Assembly (NCBI GenBank): GCA_945862505.1
Contig: CAMAYJ010000025.1
Location: 1-33,008 of the forward strand
Length of the DNA: 33,008 nt
DNA from: Bifidobacterium breve
GTDB taxonomy: Bacteria > Actinomycetota > Acidimicrobiia > Acidimicrobiales > Acidimicrobilacustridaceae
Direction: 5' to 3'
Shown: positions 1,547-10,938 of the stretch, one piece after another
Layout of the letters: each line of letters starts with the position of its first letter
Position numbering within the stretch: the stretch's first letter is position 1
The notes under the pieces: generated by a model
Seen by the model: only the letters and a program-made list of their open reading frames with translations
Told to the model about the DNA's origin: nothing
The model's database searches: none
Program-made: the position numbers and the translations under genes

Positions 1547-1657
1547 TCAACCGAAAAACGCCCAGATGACGAGACCCAGGCAGATGACGATTGCGGCACT
1601 GACCATGACATAGTCGAACGGTGTGCGGCGTTGTTGGCGATGCGGATTGAATCCCAC
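1547..1657 (-). CDS. Tiny single-helix membrane protein (36 aa)
   Basis: A 36-codon frame from GTG 1657 to TGA 1549-1547. It begins with a basic arm (GFNPHRQQRRTPFDYV) followed by one hydrophobic helix (MVSAAIVICLGLVIWAFFG) that runs to the stop, a typical N-in/C-out single-pass layout. The other two minus-strand frames here give low-complexity sequence without domain character, while this one ends one nucleotide before the next gene's ATG (TGAGATG). That tight spacing supports a real gene. Small basic-arm plus one-helix proteins are common in actinobacterial operons, but I cannot name this one. It is divergent from the cytochrome c gene. Confidence 0.55.
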   Translation of the reverse strand: MGFNPHRQQRRTPFDYVMVSAAIVICLGLVIWAFFG

Positions 1658-1731
1658 CTTCTAAGTATTCCCTGAGAATGACGCGCCCCCGCACGCGGGT
1701 TGCGATGGGTCCACTGGTATCGTCCTCAGCC

Positions 1732-2085
1732 ATGCGTTCCCCCCGAGTTCTTGCTGCTGGATTGATGCTGGTTGCTGGCGTGACGATCGTTGCCGCCTGC
1801 TCGAGTGGGAGTTCCACGCCGGCCGCACCAGCGGGTGATGCGGTGCTGGTCGAAGGACAGAAGGCCTACTCGCAGAACTGCGCCGGGTGCCATGGTGCCG
1901 CTGGCGGCGGAGCGTACGGGCGGAAGTTGGCGGGAGTCGTAACGGTGAAATACCCAAACATCGACGATCAAATTGCCCTGATCACAAATGGGAAGGGCGC
2001 TATGCCATCGTTCTCAAAGAAGTTGACGGCTGACCAGATCACGGCGGTCACCCGATATACGCGCGAGGTTCTTGTAGCGAAGTAG
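1732..2085 (+). CDS. Cytochrome c class I lipoprotein
   Basis: A 117-residue exported c-type cytochrome. From ATG 1732 the product starts MRSPRVLAAGLMLVAG and has a lipobox ending VAAC, so it should be lipid-anchored outside the membrane. A Ser/Ala/Pro linker precedes the haem site CAGCH, and GAMPSF supplies the likely axial methionine. The C-terminal helix (TADQITAVTRYTREVL) is typical of small mono-haem cytochromes such as the cytochrome c oxidase/cbb3-associated kind. An upstream ATG at 1678 would add 18 residues in front of the signal peptide, so 1732 is preferred. It probably shuttles electrons; the partner is not encoded nearby. Confidence 0.82.
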   Translation: MRSPRVLAAGLMLVAGVTIVAACSSGSSTPAAPAGDAVLVEGQKAYSQNCAGCHGAAGGGAYGRKLAGVVTVKYPNIDDQIALITNGKGAMPSFSKKLTADQITAVTRYTREVLVAK

Positions 2086-2198
2086 TCATTCGCTCGCAAC
2101 AGTGCGAACGGCCCGTGTGTGTCATTTCAGCAGTTCGTAGTGTCAGTGCCTCGGCGGCAGTTATCGCCCTTCGACCCATTCATTGTCGCGGAGGTTCG

Positions 2199-3076
2199 AT
2201 GCTTGCCACCATCGGGTCGGCAACGTTGTCAGGTATCGATGGTGTACCTGTCACCGTTGAAGTGCATGTTGCCAACGGCTTACCCGGATTTACTGTGGTC
2301 GGGTTACCCGATGCGTCATGTCGCGAAGCGCGAGATCGTGTGCGCGCTGCACTTCTTACCTCGGGTTACGCGTGGCCCGACCGACGAACAACGGTAAATC
2401 TTGCGCCAACTTCGGTGCGCAAAGTCGGGGCATCGTTAGATCTTGCGATCGCGATCGGTGTTCTTGTGGCCAGTGAACAACTACCCGCCGATGTCGTCAC
2501 CGACCGGGCCTTTCTCGCCGAAGTCGGTCTCGACGGTTCACTCCGCCATGTTCCTGGAGCCCTTTCACTTGCCGCTGCGTGTTCGCAGCCCGAAATCATC
2601 GTTGCACCTGACTCATATTCCGAAGCATCGCTTGTGGCTCGGCCGAAGATCCGATGCGCTGCAGATTTGCGAACCTTGGTCGACGCTCTGCTCGCAGAAG
2701 CACCATGGCCGCGGCCTCCGGACGAACCCATTGCCGCGTCGAACACTGGCGATGCCGATCTTGCCGATGTTCGCGGCCATCGGCTGGCTCGCTTCGGTCT
2801 CGAAGTCGCTGCTGCCGGTGGTCACCACCTTCTGATGGTTGGTCCGCCTGGTTCGGGCAAGACCATGTTGGCCGAACGTCTTCCTGGTCTATTGCCCGAC
2901 CTTGACGATCACACCGCGTTCGATACCACGCGTGTGCATTCAGCGGCGGGTGAATCAATGGTTGGTGGTTTGGTTCGGCGTCCACCATTGCGCGCTCCGC
3001 ATCACGGAATGAGCGCAGTGGCCATGGTCGGTGGAGGCTCGCATCGGCTGCGCCCGGGCGAAATTTCGATGGCGCA
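2199..3076 (+). pseudogene. comM: comM (yifB) 5' fragment, interrupted by integrative element
   Basis: Codons 1-292 of a YifB/ComM AAA+ ATPase (Mg-chelatase-like). The ATG at 2199 has a GGAGG site about 5 nt upstream. Visible are the N-terminal domain (TIGSATLSGIDGVPVTVEVH, GLPGFTVVGLPDA, VNLAPTSVRKVGASLDLAIA) and Walker A at residues 215-222 (GPPGSGKT). The frame reaches GEISMA at residue 292, then enters foreign DNA. Walker B and everything after it lie about 6 kb away at 9145-9789. ComM is a branch-migration helicase that helps integrate incoming DNA during natural transformation; this copy cannot work unless the element excises. The frame stays open into the integrase gene, so a fusion product is formally possible. 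Confidence 0.93.
3069..3076 (+). repeat. attL core (ATGGCGCA)
   Basis: Left copy of the 8-bp core. It encodes Met-Ala and the first two bases of codon 293 of comM. Sequence left of it (GAAATTTCG) is comM; sequence right of it (GGCTAGTAG) is element DNA. The arm ATGTTCC at 3092-3098 is the mirror image of GGAACAT at 9129-9135. Confidence 0.88.
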
Positions 3077-3085
3077 GGCTAGTAG

Positions 3086-3091
3086 TACAAT
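3086..3091 (+). promoter_or_regulatory. Integrase -10 box (TACAAT), leaderless start
   Basis: TACAAT lies 7 nt before the integrase ATG at 3099, the spacing expected for a leaderless transcript. In the integrated state the position 17 bp upstream reads ATTTCG, a poor -35. In the joined circle that position would read TGGACA, brought from 9139-9144, a 5 of 6 match to TTGACA. The promoter is inferred from spacing and consensus only. Confidence 0.55.
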
Positions 3092-3098
3092 ATGTTCC

Positions 3099-4496
3099 AT
3101 GAAGAGAGCAGCGATCTACTGCAGAATTTCATCGGATCCTCTGGGCGAAAGCAAGGGAGTGGAGCGGCAGGAACAGGACTGCCTCGCCCTCGCAGAAAAA
3201 GCTGGGTTTGAAGTGATTGGGATATTCGTCGACAACGACACAACGGCGTTTCGAGGGCGTCCCCGCCCGAAGTATCAGCAACTGATCGAGATCGTTCGCT
3301 CAGGAATGGTGGACGTAATCGTTGCGTGGCACCCGGATCGCCTTCATCGCAACATGAGAGAACTCGAGGACTTCATTGATCTCGTAGAAGGCGCAAAGTG
3401 TGATGTTCAAACTGTCCGTGAAGGCTCGTATGACTTAACGACTCCAAGTGGGCGGGGCATCGCTCGCGTGATTGGCGCACTGGCGACGGCTGAGTCAGAA
3501 CACAAAAGTGCGCGGTTGAAACGAAAACATGAGCAGATTGCTCAAGAAGGTCGACTGTCGGGCGGGGGAAGACGTCCTTTTGGCTACGAGGAAGATCGGC
3601 TTGCAATTCGAGAAGACGAAGCTGAGTTGATTCGATCTGCGGTTAAGGATGTCCTCAATGGCAGAAGTATTCGTTCGATAACTAACGAATGGCGGAACTC
3701 TGGAGTCCCCACGGTGACAGGAGCGCGGTGGACGCCAAATGTCATCAAAGGAATTTTGACTCGAGGACGAATCGCTGGGCTGCGTGAGTTGGGGGGTGAC
3801 GTCATTGCGAAGGCGGTGTGGCAAGGAATAATCACCCCTGAGGAACTGACTCGAGTTCGAGCGATCCTGCTGGATCCATCACGACGGACGAATCAACGCT
3901 CACGTCGCTATCTTCTGACTGGCGGAATTGCTCGCTGTGGACATTGTTCTGCCAACTTGATCGCCCGGCCACGGGCGGATCGCCGGCCTTGCTACGTGTG
4001 TGCGAAAGATGTTGGTGGCTGCGGAGGAATCCGTGTGCTCGCTGAGCCACTTGATGACGCAATCATTCAAATGGTTTTCATTGCACTCGAAGGCTCTGGA
4101 CTTAATAAGGCCTTGTATCGAGGTAAGTCCAAAAAATCAGATACCTCGGAAACGATTCTCACTGAGATCATGAGATTCGACACGAAACTCGAAGAACTCT
4201 CCGAAATGTTTGCGGCTGACGAAATTCGAAGAGTTGATTACCTAAATGTCACGAAGGGTTTGCGGGCGAAACGTGAGGAAGCGCAGCGTCGACTTGGAGT
4301 GATCGAGGGAAATGCTGCACTTGCACGATTCGCAGGTGGCATCGACGTACTTCGAGCTGCGTGGCCTGAGATGAGCGTTGATGATCGCCGACTTGTGATT
4401 TCCTCGGTTCTTGATCACGTTCCGGTCATGCCCGCTGTGAGGGGACGCAACTTCTTCGATGCTGGGAGAATCGGCGAACCAGTTTGGCGTGTCTAA
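3099..4496 (+). CDS. Large serine recombinase (site-specific integrase)
   Basis: A 465-residue recombinase that should catalyse attP x attB integration of the element. The N-terminal catalytic domain has YCRISSD (Arg9 and nucleophile Ser11), ERQEQD at 22-27 and DRLHRN at 80-85 with the two active-site arginines. A recombinase domain follows (RRPFGYEED near 158, with SITNEWRNSGVPT and GILTRGRIAG). The zinc ribbon uses Cys280, Cys283, Cys298 and Cys301, and a coiled-coil stretch runs about 355-405. Length and order fit the large serine integrase family. The ATG at 3099 is chosen because the catalytic domain begins there; no ribosome binding site precedes it, in line with a leaderless transcript. 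It sits 23 bp inside the left end, the usual place for such an enzyme beside its attP site. Confidence 0.92.
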   Translation: MKRAAIYCRISSDPLGESKGVERQEQDCLALAEKAGFEVIGIFVDNDTTAFRGRPRPKYQQLIEIVRSGMVDVIVAWHPDRLHRNMRELEDFIDLVEGAKCDVQTVREGSYDLTTPSGRGIARVIGALATAESEHKSARLKRKHEQIAQEGRLSGGGRRPFGYEEDRLAIREDEAELIRSAVKDVLNGRSIRSITNEWRNSGVPTVTGARWTPNVIKGILTRGRIAGLRELGGDVIAKAVWQGIITPEELTRVRAILLDPSRRTNQRSRRYLLTGGIARCGHCSANLIARPRADRRPCYVCAKDVGGCGGIRVLAEPLDDAIIQMVFIALEGSGLNKALYRGKSKKSDTSETILTEIMRFDTKLEELSEMFAADEIRRVDYLNVTKGLRAKREEAQRRLGVIEGNAALARFAGGIDVLRAAWPEMSVDDRRLVISSVLDHVPVMPAVRGRNFFDAGRIGEPVWRV

Positions 4497-4837
4497 CGTG
4501 CCCTGATTGGTCCCTCAGTTGCGTTCTAAGCATCTGAATTTCGAAACAGCAGTCATTGGGACACGTTTCGAAAAATGAGAGTCTTTCGCCCGGTTTACTC
4601 ATAGCGCGACTTAGTAGATTCGTCCTTGTTGGTTGGACTACTGGCGGGTCAGGTAAGTGGCAAAGCAAATTGATTATCGCCGCCTAGTCATTGTCAACTG
4701 GCCTAGCTGATGGCTACGTTCGAAAAGACTGAACTGCCTGTTCAATTAAGGGTTCAATTCGAGGAACGCGATTCGAGCACGAGATTCGAGGATGGCTTAG
4801 GCTTTTTCGAAATTGATCGGCGAGAAAAGGGCAACTT
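4497..4837. other. Intergenic stretch after the integrase
   Basis: 341 bp with no convincing gene. A minus-strand frame overlapping 4426-4668 has no recognisable motif and runs into the integrase gene, so I reject it. The last 100 bp hold several GATTCGAG/ATTCGAG-like words (near 4755, 4770 and 4783) and GAGAAAAGG at 4822-4830, a ribosome binding site for the next gene. No clear terminator hairpin was found. Confidence 0.5.
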
Positions 4838-5227
4838 GTGAAGAGCGGGCAGAAATTTACGACGGGAATCTTTTGTGTATCGATGCTGGGTATGGGCTTG
4901 TTGACGGCGTGTGGATCGTCGAGTTCTGAGAAGCCCAAGTCTTCATCGACTAGCAGCACGATTGCGAAGTCAACGACAACCATGATGAGTACCACGACGA
5001 CTCAAGTCACGACTACGACTACTGCTCCGCCGGTTACAGCGCCTCCTGCGAAATCGGCACCCGCCACTTCGCCTCCGGCAACAGCTGCTCCTCAGCAACA
5101 GCCCAGTGTGAGCTACGCAAACTGCGCTGCGGTGAAGGCCGCTGGAGCTGCTCCGCTTTACCGTGGTCAGCCGGGTTACTCGTCAAGTCTTGATCGAGAC
5201 GGCGACGGTGTGGCCTGTGAGAAGTAG
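4838..5227 (+). CDS. Excalibur-domain lipoprotein
   Basis: A 129-residue exported protein from GTG 4838, with AAAAGG upstream. The signal peptide (IFCVSMLGMGLLTAC) ends in lipobox LTAC with Cys25, predicting a membrane-anchored lipoprotein. Residues 26-90 are a Ser/Thr/Pro/Ala-rich tether. Residues 93-128 form an Excalibur calcium-binding domain, with NCAAVKAAGAAPLYRGQPGY followed by LDRDGDGVACE, where the aspartates form the EF-hand-like calcium loop and two cysteines can pair. Excalibur domains occur on secreted nucleases and surface proteins; here there is no nuclease domain, so the protein seems to be a bare surface module. It is the first cargo gene after the integrase. Confidence 0.82.
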   Translation: MKSGQKFTTGIFCVSMLGMGLLTACGSSSSEKPKSSSTSSTIAKSTTTMMSTTTTQVTTTTTAPPVTAPPAKSAPATSPPATAAPQQQPSVSYANCAAVKAAGAAPLYRGQPGYSSSLDRDGDGVACEK

Positions 5228-5458
5228 GAAGCTCTAGGTCTGGAAGCACAAGTAGATTCGGAGGTTCTTCGGAACGGGTTTTCGAATTCGAGAAATGCAT
5301 TAAAGATCTCCCGAATCTGGCCCGTGTCTGGCGGGTTCAAGACGAGCGAGCGAGCGATCCGGTCCCCCCGTCTTCTTTTGACGTGAAATCCTTCAAGGAT
5401 CTTCATGAGTAACGACGGTCCGTTAGGATTTCGATGAAAATCTCGGGCGGAGGTAGAT

Positions 5459-6802
5459 ATGAAACGATTGCGATCGTCTGTTTATGTACTTGGCGTACTG
5501 GTGATCGCCGCAGTTCCAAATTCGGGAGTGTTGGCTTGGTTTGGGATTAGCGGTTGGCAGTACAGCGGAGCGTATAACTCCTATTCAGCAGAGATAGCAC
5601 CGGCGAGGTTTACTGACATCTTTACTTGGCGATTTGGCGTTCCTCCCGGCTACCTGTTGATAGGGGCGGCTCTACTAACTGGACTGTTTCTCATGATGGG
5701 CTTCGGCAAGTCGATCGCCGATCCTCGAGTTAGGTATTGCGGTCTAGTGGTCGGCTCTATGGGCGCTGTGAACCTTGTGCTTGTTGCGTTGAATTCGAGC
5801 CCTTGGAGTTCTCAGGAAAGCCCAAATGCGAGCCCCTTCACTGCAAACAATAAAGGGCCTCGCTTGACTTGGAGCGAGGTCGCCGACGTTGAGATCGGGC
5901 TCTATGTCTCACTTCTCTGCTGCGCTCTGCAGATTGCGTTCGGAATTTACATTGCACTCGGATTGAAACTCGGCTGGGAAGCCGTCGTGGAGTCGCCGGA
6001 ATTGAAACAAGAGGATCTTCGGCGCACAGCAAAGAATTCTGAAGATGCTCAAATTTCTGACGCCAATTTGTTTTCGAACGATCAGGGACAGGCTTCGAAC
6101 AGAATTCCGGATGCGATGGCCGCACTCGAATCCCCGACGAAAAAACACTCACGCGAAATCGCTATCAATGCAGTCCTATTTCTCATGGTCGCTCTGATCG
6201 GCCTACTCCCATTTTTGTCGTTTGGGGCTCTCGGTATGTCCGTGTCGGTGAACGCATTTAGGACTGAAAAGGGCGAAGACCTGAGGGTCTGGCTCACGGT
6301 TATTCCGATTGGTTGGGTCGTGGTCGCCATTTCTGTCATTGCACTTGGTGTTATTGCAATGGGGTTAAGGAAATCATCTCGGCCCACAAAACGGTTCGAG
6401 AACCATGCTCTTGGTGGTTTCGGATTAATTATTGGTGCGGGGCTCGTTGCGAGTTGGTACTACGCCAACAAGCAGATTGAGAACGCAATGGGAGCAGCAG
6501 TGGGTGAACCCGTCGCTGGTGGAGACCCATTCGCTGCTCTAGGCGCAGCCCTAGGCGCAGCGATGTTTCGCATTTCTTTCACCCCGGCGATTGGCTTTTG
6601 GCTGATGCTTGCCGTCGCTCTCGGAATTGCCGGGTACAACTTCTTCCTTATCCGGAAAACTGGAAAGCCGGCACCTTCTCGTGAGGTAATTCCCAACGCG
6701 ACTCTCGCTGATGGAATCCGCGACTTATCTGAACTTCGAGATCAGGGAATGATTTCTGATGAAGAATTCAGCCTCGCCAAGCGAAAACTTCTCGGGGAGT
6801 AA
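5459..6802 (+). CDS. Eight-helix membrane protein with C-terminal SHOCT domain
   Basis: A 447-residue integral membrane protein with a strong GGAGG site before ATG 5459. Hydrophobic segments lie near residues 7-27, 64-81, 93-111, 144-172, 236-258, 278-302, 318-336 and 374-398, with a hydrophilic cytosolic loop of about 60 residues (175-235) dividing them 4+4. The last 30 residues (IRDLSELRDQGMISDEEFSL onward) match the SHOCT short C-terminal domain, an oligomerisation module. An alanine/glycine-rich segment (345-368) precedes the final helix. I recognise no transport or catalytic motif. Its neighbours are lipoproteins, so a role in a cell-envelope assembly is possible but unproven. Confidence 0.7.
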   Translation: MKRLRSSVYVLGVLVIAAVPNSGVLAWFGISGWQYSGAYNSYSAEIAPARFTDIFTWRFGVPPGYLLIGAALLTGLFLMMGFGKSIADPRVRYCGLVVGSMGAVNLVLVALNSSPWSSQESPNASPFTANNKGPRLTWSEVADVEIGLYVSLLCCALQIAFGIYIALGLKLGWEAVVESPELKQEDLRRTAKNSEDAQISDANLFSNDQGQASNRIPDAMAALESPTKKHSREIAINAVLFLMVALIGLLPFLSFGALGMSVSVNAFRTEKGEDLRVWLTVIPIGWVVVAISVIALGVIAMGLRKSSRPTKRFENHALGGFGLIIGAGLVASWYYANKQIENAMGAAVGEPVAGGDPFAALGAALGAAMFRISFTPAIGFWLMLAVALGIAGYNFFLIRKTGKPAPSREVIPNATLADGIRDLSELRDQGMISDEEFSLAKRKLLGE

Positions 6803-6828
6803 TCGACTCTCTGAGTGTGATCAAGAGA

Positions 6829-6895
6829 ATTTAATTATCACACTTTTACCCATAATTATCGCACAGTTTGATATCAACTTTTTGAACGATTTGGG
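6829..6895 (+). repeat. Leader repeat, copy 1
   Basis: About 67 bp nearly identical to 8029-8095, exactly 1,200 bp away, with roughly three base differences. It starts at TTTAATTATCACAC and includes CATAATTATCGCACAG and ATATCAACTTTTTGA. Each copy lies upstream of a lipoprotein gene with the same signal peptide. Repeat 1 is 243 bp from its gene, repeat 2 only 121 bp. Confidence 0.85.
6833..6860 (+). promoter_or_regulatory. Paired AATTATC operator-like sites
   Basis: AATTATCACAC at 6833 and AATTATCGCAC at 6854 are spaced 21 bp, about two helical turns. The same pair recurs at 8033 and 8054. The half-palindromic ATAATTAT form fits a dimeric regulator bound on one DNA face. No promoter elements can be fixed next to them with confidence. 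Confidence 0.45.
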
Positions 6896-6967
6896 AGAAG
6901 TCGGGCGGCTGAAAGTTGAGTCGGGAGGGGACGAAGCAACAACTCGAGCGACTCCAGACGCAGATTG

Positions 6968-6997
6968 AATTATCACGGTTATTCGATAATTATCTCA
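6968..6997 (+). promoter_or_regulatory. Second pair of AATTATC sites (GATAATTATC palindrome)
   Basis: AATTATCAC at 6968 and AATTATCTC at 6988, 20 bp apart. The second sits in a perfect 10-bp palindrome GATAATTATC (6986-6995). This pair exists only in the longer leader of lipoprotein A, inside the roughly 120 bp that copy 2 lacks. A further inverted repeat, GATTCCTC (7022-7029) with GAGGAATC (7061-7068), lies downstream. Confidence 0.4.
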
Positions 6998-7137
6998 AAT
7001 ATTTTGAAAGAAAAGTTTCATGATTCCTCGAAAATTCCCGTTCCAGTTGAGCAGTTGCTTGAGGAATCGAGCTGCAATTTCGCGGGTGGAGAGTTGAATC
7101 AATTGATTGGCTTCAGATCATGCCTAAGATTGCCAAT

Positions 7138-7569
7138 GTGAAGCGAAACTTGGCGGCAGTAATGGCGGTATCGACTGCGGCGATGCTGTTCGCTGGTTGC
7201 GGCGGAAGTGGCGACACCGAAGCCAAGACTCGCATTCTGAATGGAACTTTCACCCTGAGCGGCTCTAGCAACAGCACACATCCACAGGGAGACGGTGGAT
7301 TCTGTTATGGAGACGACGGATATGACGATATTGAAGCAGGCCTTCGGGTGGTCGTTGCCGACGGCAACGGCAAAACACTCGCAACCGGATCTCTTGGAAA
7401 TTCTCGTTACAACGCCGCAGAGCGCGACTGCGTTTTTCCAGTCATCGTCACCACACCTTTGCCGAAGGCGGACTTTTACAGCGTCGAGGTCGGCAGACGA
7501 GGTGACTTGACGTATTCCTATGACGAAATGGTGCAACGCAATTGGGCCGTTGCGTTCACGCTTGGCTAG
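7138..7569 (+). CDS. Lipoprotein A (duplicated signal cassette)
   Basis: A 143-residue predicted lipoprotein. I prefer GTG 7138 over ATG 7120 because the paralogue at 8216 starts at the aligned codon and the product then begins with a compact signal peptide, KRNLAAVMAVSTAAMLFAGC, lipid-modified at Cys21. The mature part has FCYGDDGYDDIEAGLRVVV, a GKTLATGSLG turn, CVFPVIV and FYSVEVGRRGDLTYSYDEM, with two cysteines that could pair. I recall this C-GxGGYxDI...FYxVEVxRRG pattern from other actinobacterial exported proteins, without a known function. It converges with the minus-strand small gene; the two stop codons overlap in CTAG. Confidence 0.75.
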   Translation: MKRNLAAVMAVSTAAMLFAGCGGSGDTEAKTRILNGTFTLSGSSNSTHPQGDGGFCYGDDGYDDIEAGLRVVVADGNGKTLATGSLGNSRYNAAERDCVFPVIVTTPLPKADFYSVEVGRRGDLTYSYDEMVQRNWAVAFTLG

Positions 7570-7856
7570 TTGAGCGTTTCCGGTGGCAGTCCGTAGCCGG
7601 TGGCTCGCAGGATCTTCTCTAGTTGCTGTGTCGTGAGTTGATTGCCGTATCTGCCAGCGACAACGTCACGCACCGCCGCCGCCGCATCGACGACTGACTG
7701 CACCGCCGCATCATCTGACGATGCACTCAATGCTTCGAGTGATGCCATGCAGGCGAGATACTCGGCCGCAACGCTGAGCAGACGGTCGACGAGTTGCTGC
7801 GATAGTTGCGGCACCATCTGGTCGAACAGTTCTTCGGGATCTTCTGGAGTCGACAT
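7566..7856 (-). CDS. Small acidic helical protein of unknown function
   Basis: A 96-residue protein from ATG 7856 (MSTPEDPEELFDQMVPQLSQ), with GAGAGG upstream. A TTG two codons earlier is less likely. It is predicted to be mostly helical, rich in Ala/Asp/Glu, with no signal peptide or membrane helix, so it should be cytoplasmic. It ends LRATGYGLPPETLN. I recognise no family. The plus strand also carries a 77-aa frame here, but that one is Ser/Thr/Ala low-complexity and lacks domain character. Support for the minus frame comes from a decayed second copy of its 3' end downstream of lipoprotein B (8556-8600), where TGYGLPPETLN corresponds to TG-stop-GLPPKTLN. Confidence 0.6.
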   Translation of the reverse strand: MSTPEDPEELFDQMVPQLSQQLVDRLLSVAAEYLACMASLEALSASSDDAAVQSVVDAAAAVRDVVAGRYGNQLTTQQLEKILRATGYGLPPETLN

Positions 7857-8028
7857 TGCCAAGGCCTCTCATTAGGTGATACCCGAAAGGTACTCATCGA
7901 GCGGGCGCCGGGGAGTAGGGGATTCTCATTTGTGATCTGTCGAAGTGTGATTCTCCGGTGACATCAGCACCTCCGCAGCAGCAAGCGGTGCCTACGATCA
8001 CATGGCGAAAACTTTGGCCGGTGCTGAG

Positions 8029-8095
8029 ATTTAATTATCACACTTTCACCCATAATTATCGCACAGTTTCATATCAACTTTTTGAGCGATTTTGG
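8029..8095 (+). repeat. Leader repeat, copy 2
   Basis: Second copy of the 67-bp leader repeat, including AATTATCACAC (8033) and AATTATCGCAC (8054). Downstream homology with copy 1 fades and returns at CGCGGGTGG (8159 here, 7081 in copy 1), so about 120 bp present in copy 1 is missing here or was gained there. Confidence 0.85.
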
Positions 8096-8215
8096 GCAAA
8101 TATGTGTCTGGAAGTTGAGTCCTGGTCGGCTGAATCAGCAACGCAAGTTCTCCAACTTCGCGGGTGGGAAGTTGATTCACCTCATTCGTTTCAAATCTTC
8201 TTTAGGATTTCCAAT

Positions 8216-8539
8216 ATGAAGCGGAAATTGGTGGGAGTCATGGCGGTATCGATTGTGGCGTTGCTGTTCGCTGGTTGCGTGACTGTCGAGGCTCCGAAGG
8301 CGGAACCTGCGACCACGACCACGATGTCTAAGGATCAGATCTGTGCGGAGATCTATAAAAAGAATCAAGATGCAATCAAAAGAGGCATCGCCGCTGCAAC
8401 TGACAAGACTTATGCCTCGATCGAAGGAGAGTCAAGGTTGGAGATACTCAGACTTCAGAGCATTTACGACTCGGCCTTGATGGAGGCCAAGCAATTCGGC
8501 GATGAGTTCACAGCCAAGAGTTGCCCCCTTCCGAAGTAG
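8216..8539 (+). CDS. Lipoprotein B (paralogous signal, unrelated mature part)
   Basis: A 107-residue predicted lipoprotein from ATG 8216, with AGGA about 8 nt upstream. The signal peptide KRKLVGVMAVSIVALLFAGC (Cys21) is nearly the same as that of lipoprotein A, and the DNA around the start is also alike. After Cys21 the two proteins differ completely: this one has a short Thr-rich tether (PATTTTM) and then a helical domain with two cysteines (QICAEIYKKN, AKSCPLPK). A longer frame from 7958 reads through the leader repeat and is not the real start. It looks like a swap of cargo behind a shared export and control cassette. Confidence 0.72.
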   Translation: MKRKLVGVMAVSIVALLFAGCVTVEAPKAEPATTTTMSKDQICAEIYKKNQDAIKRGIAAATDKTYASIEGESRLEILRLQSIYDSALMEAKQFGDEFTAKSCPLPK

Positions 8540-8555
8540 TAGGTCAGCAGTAATC

Positions 8556-8600
8556 CGAGTTCAGCGTCTTCGGCGGTAATCCTTACCCGGTGCGTGAATC
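8556..8600 (-). pseudogene. Remnant of the small acidic helical gene
   Basis: Reverse translation gives TG-stop-GLPPKTLN, matching the end of the 7566-7856 product (TGYGLPPETLN). The Tyr codon TAC has become TAA. Homology is about 70 percent over roughly 42 nt and fades upstream. Its place, just after lipoprotein B, mirrors the intact gene just after lipoprotein A. Confidence 0.6.
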
Positions 8601-9144
8601 AGAATACGAAACACAATCCTAAATAGTTGTGTATCTCATGTCTACGTTTCATCGAAATTGAGAGAACGTGGGCTGCTTTCATGCGACGTGCGTTAAAGAT
8701 TTCCTCAATTTTGAGATTGGCGGGGAAGACATGAGAGGGATTCGTTCGACTGTGCTGATACCCCCATCGCTGAAATAATTCGAATGAGAGTCAACTCGTC
8801 AGAAACCGAGGGTTGAAGTCCTTGCGTCATGCGCGACTTAGCAACGAGTGACTGAATCACTTCATTGTTTCTCGCGGCACGAAGCTCGTGGACGGTCTCC
8901 ATGCATACGAGAGAACACCATGAGGTGCCTCACAACTACGGGAATCTCATAGTTCCGATTGATTTTTTTATAGCGACTAGCGCTGTCGGAAAGATTGAAC
9001 TCGAGATCTCATCGCCACTCAATTTTCGAATGAGTACATCGCGAATTCGGCAAGGAATCCTGTACAATTGTGTAGAGCCAATTTGCTCGTAGTGGCATCG
9101 ATCCTGTCTCGAGGTTGGCGGCACTCAAGGAACATCAGTGGACA
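8601..9144. other. Right end of element, mostly non-coding
   Basis: About 540 bp with no confident gene apart from the doubtful 65-aa frame. It is AT-richer than the flanks. The last 20 bp matter: GGAACAT at 9129-9135 mirrors ATGTTCC at 3092-3098, and TGGACA at 9139-9144 directly abuts the right core and becomes a -35 box when the ends are joined. Confidence 0.5.
8705..8902 (-). CDS. Possible 65-aa protein, unrecognised
   Basis: An open frame from ATG 8902, starting METVHELRAARNNEVIQSLV. The first 47 residues look helical and protein-like (LTLIRIISAMG), the last 18 do not. There is no family match and no clear ribosome binding site. Position near the right end would fit an excision or regulatory factor, but nothing in the sequence shows that. 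Confidence 0.25.
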   Translation of the reverse strand: METVHELRAARNNEVIQSLVAKSRMTQGLQPSVSDELTLIRIISAMGVSAQSNESLSCLPRQSQN

Positions 9145-9152
9145 ATGGCGCA
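9145..9152 (+). repeat. attR core (ATGGCGCA)
   Basis: Right copy of the 8-bp core. Bases to its right (TGGCGGTGTC) continue comM in frame as His-Gly-Gly-Val; bases to its left belong to the element. Confidence 0.88.
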
Positions 9153-9789
9153 TGGCGGTGTCTTGTTTCTTGACGAAATGGGGGAGTTCAGTGCCGTTGT
9201 TCTCGACTCCCTGAGGCAGCCTCTTGAAGAAGGTGTTATTCGTTTGGCGCGAGCCGAGACGCGCGTGGAATTGCCAGCACGCTTTTTGCTCATCGGGGCG
9301 ATGAATCCCTGCCCATGCGGTGAGGGTGTGGTTCCGGCGGCGTGTCGTTGTTCCGATCGAGCACTTGAGCGGTACCGCAGGCGTCTCTCAGGCCCGCTGC
9401 TTGATCGATTCGACCTTCGTATCGACGTGCATCGCCCCGATCCGAGGCAATTGCTAGGTGGAGGCCCGGCGGAATCAAGCGCTGTCGTTGCCGACCGTGT
9501 TCGCAACGCTCGATGTCGTGCTGTCGAGCGTGGCGTTCGATGCAATGCCGAGCTTTCATCTTCGGCTCTTGAGCACAGCTCTCCACTCGAAACCAATGCG
9601 TCTGCGCTAATCGAACGGTCACTTGAATCTGGCCGTCTTTCGGCACGGGGAATGCGGCGAGTGTGGCGGGTGGCGCGCACCATCGCCGATCTCGAAGGCT
9701 ACGAAGGCGCTCTCACCGCAGAACATGTGGCCAGCGCACTGCATTTGCGAACTGATCCTGCCTTTCTTGTCCGTTCGTTGGTGAAGTAA
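9145..9789 (+). pseudogene. comM: comM (yifB) 3' fragment
   Basis: Carries codons 293-504 of comM. It begins with Walker B (GGVLFLDEMGEF) and continues with LRQPLEEGVIRLARAE, the AAA+ sensor region LIGAMNPCPCGE, the CRCSDRALERYRRRLSGPLL segment, DRFDLRIDVHRP, and the C-terminal SARGMRRVWRVARTIADLEG helix. All conserved parts are intact, so the split is recent or reversible. On its own the fragment lacks the nucleotide-binding P-loop and should be inactive. The stop codon directly abuts the dprA GTG. Confidence 0.92.
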
Positions 9790-10938
9790 GTGGTCAAGTC
9801 GCGAATTCCCGACGAAGCGTGGGTTACTGCACTCTCACGCGTGCCCGGAATAGGGCCGGCTCGGCTGCGAGCACTTCTTGCGAGTGACGAACCTGCATCG
9901 CTGTGGCGTTCTGTGTGTAACGGCTCACTTCCAAAGGAACTTCCCCCTGATGCGAGTTCCGGCGGTGCCGGGCTTCGACTTCCTCAAGCGCTTCGTGATC
10001 AATGGCGTTTCGCGGCAAGAACGATCGATCCCGAGGCGTATTGGAACGCACACGTCGAAGCCGGTATCGGCGTGATGCTCCGATGGTCTCCCTCATTTCC
10101 AGAAGAACTCGCCAACGACGATGACGCGCCAGCCATCTTGTTTTGGCTCGGCGATATCGATCGGTTAGCCGGCACACGTGTCGCGATCGTCGGCACACGG
10201 CGGGCCAGTCGCTATGGCATCGATGTTGCCAACGAGTTTGCTCGAGAACTTTCTCTTGCCGGCGTCTCTGTCGTCTCGGGACTGGCTCTAGGAATTGATG
10301 GAGCCGCGCATGCTGGTGCACTTGCAGTCGAGGGAGCCCCGCCAATTGCTGTGGTCGGGAGCGGGCTTGATCGTGTCTATCCCCGTGCGCATCGCTCCTT
10401 ATGGAGAGCAGTGGCCGAACGCGGCGTTGTGTTGAGTGAATACCCGTTGGGCTCGTCGGCAGTCGCTTGGCAGTTCCCGGCTCGCAATCGAATCATCGCC
10501 GCGCTTTCTGATGTGGTTGTAGTGGTCGAATCGCAATCAACTGGGGGAGCGTTGGGTACTGCAGTTGAAGCAGCCCGGCGGGGCCGAACAGTTCTTGCTG
10601 TTCCCGGGCCAATCACGGCACCCAGTTCAGCGGGAACGAATCAACTGTTGTTCGATGGCTGTGGACCTGTTCGTGATGTTGGCGATGTGCTGCTTGCGCT
10701 GGGTCGTGAACCAGAACGTCGACGAGTCGCAGCCGAGCAGCGTCCGACTCCCATTGGAACCGCCAAGGATGTGCTGGACGCCTTGCCTTGGCAGGCGATT
10801 CCCGTGGAACAGGTCCTCTCCACGACAGGTCTCGAATTGGGTTTGGTCATGCTCGTGCTCGAGCAACTCGAGAACGATGGTTGGGTCTCACAACGCTCCG
10901 GATGGATCGAACGGATTGGCCGCGGGGGAGCGAGATGA
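9790..10938 (+). CDS. dprA: DNA-processing protein DprA (Smf)
   Basis: A 382-residue DprA, which in naturally transformable bacteria protects incoming single-stranded DNA and loads RecA. The GTG at 9790 follows the comM stop with no gap, so the two were translationally coupled. An N-terminal helix-hairpin-helix region (SRVPGIGPARLRALLA) is followed by the Rossmann-like DprA core with IVGTRRASRYG, VVSGLALGIDGAAHAGAL, VVGSGLDRVYP and SEYPLG. The C-terminal winged-helix domain (TGLELGLVMLVLEQLENDGW) is present. The comM-dprA pairing is common in actinobacteria. With comM interrupted, dprA now depends on element-internal or local promoters. Confidence 0.93.
   Translation: MVKSRIPDEAWVTALSRVPGIGPARLRALLASDEPASLWRSVCNGSLPKELPPDASSGGAGLRLPQALRDQWRFAARTIDPEAYWNAHVEAGIGVMLRWSPSFPEELANDDDAPAILFWLGDIDRLAGTRVAIVGTRRASRYGIDVANEFARELSLAGVSVVSGLALGIDGAAHAGALAVEGAPPIAVVGSGLDRVYPRAHRSLWRAVAERGVVLSEYPLGSSAVAWQFPARNRIIAALSDVVVVVESQSTGGALGTAVEAARRGRTVLAVPGPITAPSSAGTNQLLFDGCGPVRDVGDVLLALGREPERRRVAAEQRPTPIGTAKDVLDALPWQAIPVEQVLSTTGLELGLVMLVLEQLENDGWVSQRSGWIERIGRGGAR

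Follow-up and report, generated by a model that had tools for sequence, protein, structure and literature searches.

Circularisation of the transposons Tn4451 and Tn4453 reportedly forms a promoter for their large serine recombinase TnpX, as described by Lyras and Rood in 2000, and the circularisation of IS911 is likewise said, after work by Ton-Hoang in 1997, to assemble a strong promoter. IS911 encodes a DDE transposase and has terminal inverted repeats and no serine recombinase, and the integrases of ICEKp1 and ICEclc are tyrosine recombinases. Tn4451, a mobilizable transposon of clostridia, is described as having a target of 2 bp (PMC3158075). ICEKp1 has been reported to use a host promoter for its integrase when integrated and a promoter at its own end when excised (PMC13023037). 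Magnesium chelatase genes are a common insertion target of serine recombinases: among large serine recombinases (LSRs) predicted to be site-specific, 12.4% have been assigned such genes as their target (PMC10083194).

In the stretch of DNA analysed here (33,008 nucleotides, referred to as the window), the gene comM (yifB), which encodes an Mg chelatase-like AAA ATPase, is split in two by an element of about 6.1 kb. The 5′ part of comM (2199..3076; Pfam ChlI and Mg_chelatase) and the 3′ part (9153..9789; Mg_chelatase and Mg_chelatase_C) join without interruption in relatives, the cut falls at the His codon of SMAH/GGVLF, and dprA lies downstream of the 3′ part. These parts, the first gene of the element and the motifs described below are given on the plus strand unless stated otherwise. 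This first gene, int (3099..4496), encodes a large serine recombinase of 465 amino acids, in which the Resolvase, Recombinase and zinc-ribbon (Zn_ribbon_recom) domains each score above the Pfam curated cut-off, as expected for the class. The site in comM is uninterrupted in 17 of 20 other genomes of the same genus, as is expected of a specific target that is empty in relatives, and the nearest genome with an empty site (G006) is identical to the rebuilt empty site at 327 of 344 positions. No match to the 3′ half of comM was obtained in two of these 20 genomes (G009 and G013), and in G020, which belongs to the same genus, comM is interrupted at the identical point by other DNA. The end of this foreign DNA at the comM cut (L093/L039, G020:C157) carries GAAACAT 15 nt before CA; the integrase belonging to the insertion was not found in the G020 assembly. 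By its domains, by the form of its attP and by the empty site in relatives, the element of the window is identified as a specific-target large serine recombinase (serine integrase) element.

The cargo of the element includes an Excalibur calcium-binding domain protein (4838-5227) and a membrane protein (5459-6802) that ends in a SHOCT domain at its C terminus, and known phage or conjugation domains were absent from the proteins scanned. Two diverged direct repeats, 6829-6895 versus 8029-8095 (94% over 67 nt) and 7072-7201 versus 8150-8279 (80% over 130 nt), stand before and at the start of two small lipoprotein-like genes and look as if they came from a duplicated regulatory region and gene start.

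The two ends of the element carry copies of the core ATGGCGCA, at 3069..3076 on the left and at 9145..9152 on the right. The putative crossover dinucleotide CA (3075-3076 and 9151-9152) was placed from the symmetry of attP and from relatives inserted at the same site. Joining of the ends gives a near-symmetric attP, which reads GGAACAT (9129..9135), 15 nt, CA, 15 nt, ATGTTCC (3092..3098) and thus forms a 7-bp inverted repeat about CA. The left arm contains the inner half-site motif AGTAGT (3081..3086) at positions 5-10 from CA (consensus AGT.TT) and the outer, zinc-domain type integrase motif ATGTTCC at positions 16-22 (consensus ATGTT); in the right-end arm the inner motif occupies 9141-9146. 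Outward from CA, the consensus AGT.TT.....ATGTT is common to all nine half-sites compared, which come from six comM-site elements. The structure of the LI integrase places its ZD motif at positions 16-24, and the outer motif of the element coincides with these positions (PMC3783163). With its length of about 50 bp, its inverted half-sites around a central dinucleotide and its ZD-like motif near positions 16-24, the joined site has the form of a serine-integrase attP. When right ends were paired blind, by symmetry and core, the true site of the window came first (20.3 versus 16.5); many relatives had no clear single winner, and blind pairings were dropped as evidence in favour of ends at the comM site, for which the host gene serves as an anchor.

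The hexamer TACAAT (3086..3091) sits in one inner arm of attP, and the ATG of int follows directly after the outer motif. A preliminary description of this DNA had proposed that TACAAT, 7 nt before the ATG at 3099, directs a leaderless int transcript; its letters and distance were confirmed, and the proposal is well supported by comparison with related loci. In 61 of 121 relatives, TANNNT precedes a possible int start by 5-8 nt, mostly by 6 or 7 nt, compared with 2-14 at seven control offsets; in these counts the relatives are not independent of each other, the starts of int are predictions and more than one candidate start was accepted per locus, in the controls likewise. This set goes back to 149 loci, of which 121 stayed after the removal of identical ones; loci scoring below 120 bits, with a match that begins beyond residue 8 of the query, with less than 110 nt upstream or without ATG or GTG had been left out. 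The window itself agrees with the leaderless actinobacterial promoter, in which a gap of about 6-7 nt separates TANNNT from the start codon, and only one of its 486 plus-strand ATGs is preceded, at a distance of 5-8 nt, by a −10 with 5/6 matches or more. At phage loci, where attP is uncut, a leaderless-type TANNNT was present in six of seven (eight were fetched, and L120 was excluded by the filters used for the relatives). G021, the nearest comM-site relative found, has no good −10 at the matching place (ACGAAA, 2/6), and a consensus scan of 1600-9800 gave fewer promoter-like sites than shuffled sequences did (3 versus a mean of 4.7). In Mycobacterium tuberculosis, leaderless mRNAs with TANNNT have been described as widespread, and the mapping of transcription start sites gave promoters without a conserved −35, from which the −10 was considered the dominant determinant (PMC3898074). 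Taking the recurrence of the motif in relatives into account, we suggest that TACAAT is likely the −10 of a leaderless int mRNA.

The same description held that an excised circle would place TGGACA (9139..9144) exactly 17 bp before TACAAT, and that the −35 position of the integrated form reads ATTTCG (3063..3068), with 2/6 matches. All letters, coordinates and distances proved correct, including the equal spacing in attL; TGGACA is a −35-like hexamer with 5/6 matches, and ATTTCG is host DNA. In the joined ends (608 nt of the right end and 324 nt of the left end were scanned), TGGACA-17-TACAAT is the only plus-strand site with at least 9/12 promoter matches at spacings of 15-19 bp; the attL stretch 2701-3400 has no such site, and the best −35 alternative there at 15-19 bp is TTTCGA (3/6). 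These candidate −35 and −10 hexamers come to lie about 17 bp apart only when the ends join, as in a promoter of the Tn4451 TnpX kind. A second circle promoter deeper in the right end, where TACAAT recurs at 9063-9068, was considered and rejected, as this place has no 9/12 site.

Of the proposed circle-built promoter, the hexamers and their 17-bp spacing stand, whereas the assignment of TGGACA as a −35 is weak, this being one 5/6 hexamer that lies on an integrase-binding motif. Hexamers matching TTGACA at 5/6 or better number 31 out of 6063 in the element, or about 0.5% for exactly 17 bp if the hexamer were free; the chance of a 5/6 match calculated for a free hexamer is 0.4%. However, TGGACA overlaps the inner half-site motif at 9141-9146, which is read on the other strand, so that integrase binding may dictate two or three of the bases that match. 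The hexamer is then not free, and the chance rises to 5% with two bases given and to 17% with three. For this reason, a statistic that treated the two hexamers as independent (about 0.5%) was discarded as too generous. Among the 61 leaderless relatives, a −35 with at least 4/6 matches at 16-18 bp occurs in 15, compared with 1-11 at seven control spacings, and one with at least 5/6 in three, compared with 0-4, so that a −35 exceeds the control spacings only by a little and is not clearly enriched; since most of these loci could be either integrated or free, any circle-only −35 signal would be diluted in these counts. One of the six phage loci that have a leaderless −10 also has a −35 of at least 4/6. 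A circle-specific −35 role of TGGACA is put forward here as possible.

Relatives inserted at the same comM site differ in this respect. The place of TGGACA reads CCAACA in G645 (3/6; the ends lie on different contigs and their pairing is inferred), CGAACA in G491 (3/6) and AGTTAT in G020 (0/6), and the split promoter layout, the retention of which we added as a criterion of our own, is not kept among them. From CA to the ATG, the window and G021, whose Int is 54% identical over 331 amino acids, both have 22 nt; the distance is 43 nt in G645, 44 nt in G491 and 33 nt in G553, where the crossover is uncertain because the assigned point misses the codon boundary of comM on which the others fall. 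The right ends of G021 and G553 were not found, the 3′ half of comM being absent from those assemblies, and L029 (Oerskovia) was excluded because comM is cut elsewhere. Candidate promoters in G645 (TTGCAA-17-TAACGT) and G491 (TTGACC-18-TAGGGT) have both hexamers within the left end, and integration would therefore leave them untouched. This arrangement agrees with a reading in which int is driven to the same extent before and after integration by its −10 alone, while TGGACA merely results from the arm to which integrase binds and integration has no effect, and the same reading is favoured by the conditional chance of 5-17% for the overlapping hexamer and by the dominance of the −10 in M. tuberculosis. 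Against it stands that the match is 5/6 at exactly 17 bp and that the junction has no second site of this kind, and we consider this reading possible but rather doubtful.

Several further serine recombinase loci were noted. A related integrase (43-45% identical; L223/L236, G915:C55) adjoins comM but is oriented the other way, close to the same part of the gene. At L112 (G061:C6 226500-246499, reverse-complement 5392-10544), a related serine recombinase is followed downstream, over about 5.2 kb, by ten copies of an att-arm-like repeat of about 32 bp, which share one orientation and are separated by ORFs, and the row resembles a tandem array of cassettes. In G061, a strict pattern of the repeat matches 14 times, always on the same strand and 10 times on C6, and the reversed-pattern control has no match; a literature search gave nothing fitting an array of this type. 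Att-arm-like repeats are also present at L103 (five copies) and L107 (five weaker copies), and three related serine recombinase genes follow one another on one strand at G426:C22 171823-176597.

It has also been proposed in the preliminary description that the integrase is down once integrated. This does not follow, because the −10 and the ATG survive intact in attL, promoters without a conserved −35 are the case in M. tuberculosis, and read-through from comM is possible. An open frame at 2115-4496 is continuous from the comM ATG at 2199 to the int stop at 4496; int thus lies in an open frame behind the 5′ half of comM, and comM read-through could supply the integrase in this genome. A switch, in which the circle builds a full promoter and integration dismantles it, leaving int nearly off, would account for the hexamers and their spacing as observed, and ICEKp1, ICEclc and ICEEc1 are reported to change their int promoters by state (PMC13023037). 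However, such a switch is at odds with the intact −10 and start codon in attL and with the open frame from comM, its layout is not conserved in same-site elements, and the −35 lacks clear enrichment across relatives; in the on/off form first stated, we therefore regard it as quite unlikely, and as the least probable of the readings considered. The open frame might instead point to promoter capture, in which comM transcription in the integrated form reads into int, so that the host gene supplies the integrase, possibly as a ComM-Int fusion. The frame is likewise open in G021, and integrated ICEKp1 has been described as using the neighbouring tRNA-asn promoter (PMC13023037). However, among the five comM-site elements with a left end, only the window and G021 are open in this way (in G645, int is in the comM frame with a TAA between, and in G491 and G553 it is out of frame), which argues that the open frame is not a kept feature; furthermore, a ComM-Int fusion may be inactive. 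We consider promoter capture unlikely, somewhat less so than the switch; it is compatible with the reading preferred below, and both can hold.

The att sites and their symmetry, the hexamers, the leaderless −10 that recurs in relatives and the open frame from comM can be read directly in the DNA; from them we infer promoter activity, any difference between the states, and autorepression. The best reading overall, to which we give a probability of roughly 0.55, is that attP doubles as a leaderless int promoter, the output of which may be modestly higher in the circle. On excision, the near-symmetric attP would be rebuilt from the two ends, to be bound by an integrase dimer. TACAAT would act as the −10, with transcription starting at or beside the ATG to give a leaderless int mRNA, and the other arm would set TGGACA 17 bp upstream, probably raising transcription somewhat. 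After integration, the −35 position would be taken by host DNA, and int would depend on the −10 alone and on comM read-through. Because the integrase-binding DNA overlaps the promoter, an integrase that occupies attP would shut off transcription of its own gene from there.

If the circle and the integrated form do differ in integrase output, reinsertion would be favoured and followed by quiet, without a regulator, and a leaderless int −10 that often lies beside or inside an attachment arm would couple integrase binding directly to expression. It is conceivable, and we suggest it only tentatively, that attP itself is the leaderless promoter of int in many serine-integrase elements of actinobacteria, which would form a large group, serving as recombination site, promoter and operator at once; the integrase would then repress itself on attP, and recombination would exchange the promoter's upstream half, so that the circuit limits itself without a separate regulator. 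In a limited literature search, we found no paper uniting serine integrase, attP and leaderless promoter, and none on a serine-integrase attP promoter in the circular versus the integrated form.

Compared with the described systems, the element shares its target gene family and its enzyme family with the LSRs that target magnesium chelatase genes, for which the passage concerned makes no promoter claim (PMC10083194). It resembles ICEKp1 and ICEclc in that the int promoters would differ by state, with a host promoter in use when integrated, but the excised-state promoter of those elements is described as lying at the 3′ end upstream of attP and is not split by the crossover (PMC13023037). The candidate promoter of the window, with its hexamers inside the attP arms and a leaderless start, and the specificity of the element for comM set this locus apart from Tn4451. 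With IS911, it would share the assembly of a promoter on circularisation. With Tn4451/Tn4453 TnpX, the candidate here would have in common that the gene of a large serine recombinase gains its promoter on circle formation, a principle which is already known from Tn4451 TnpX.
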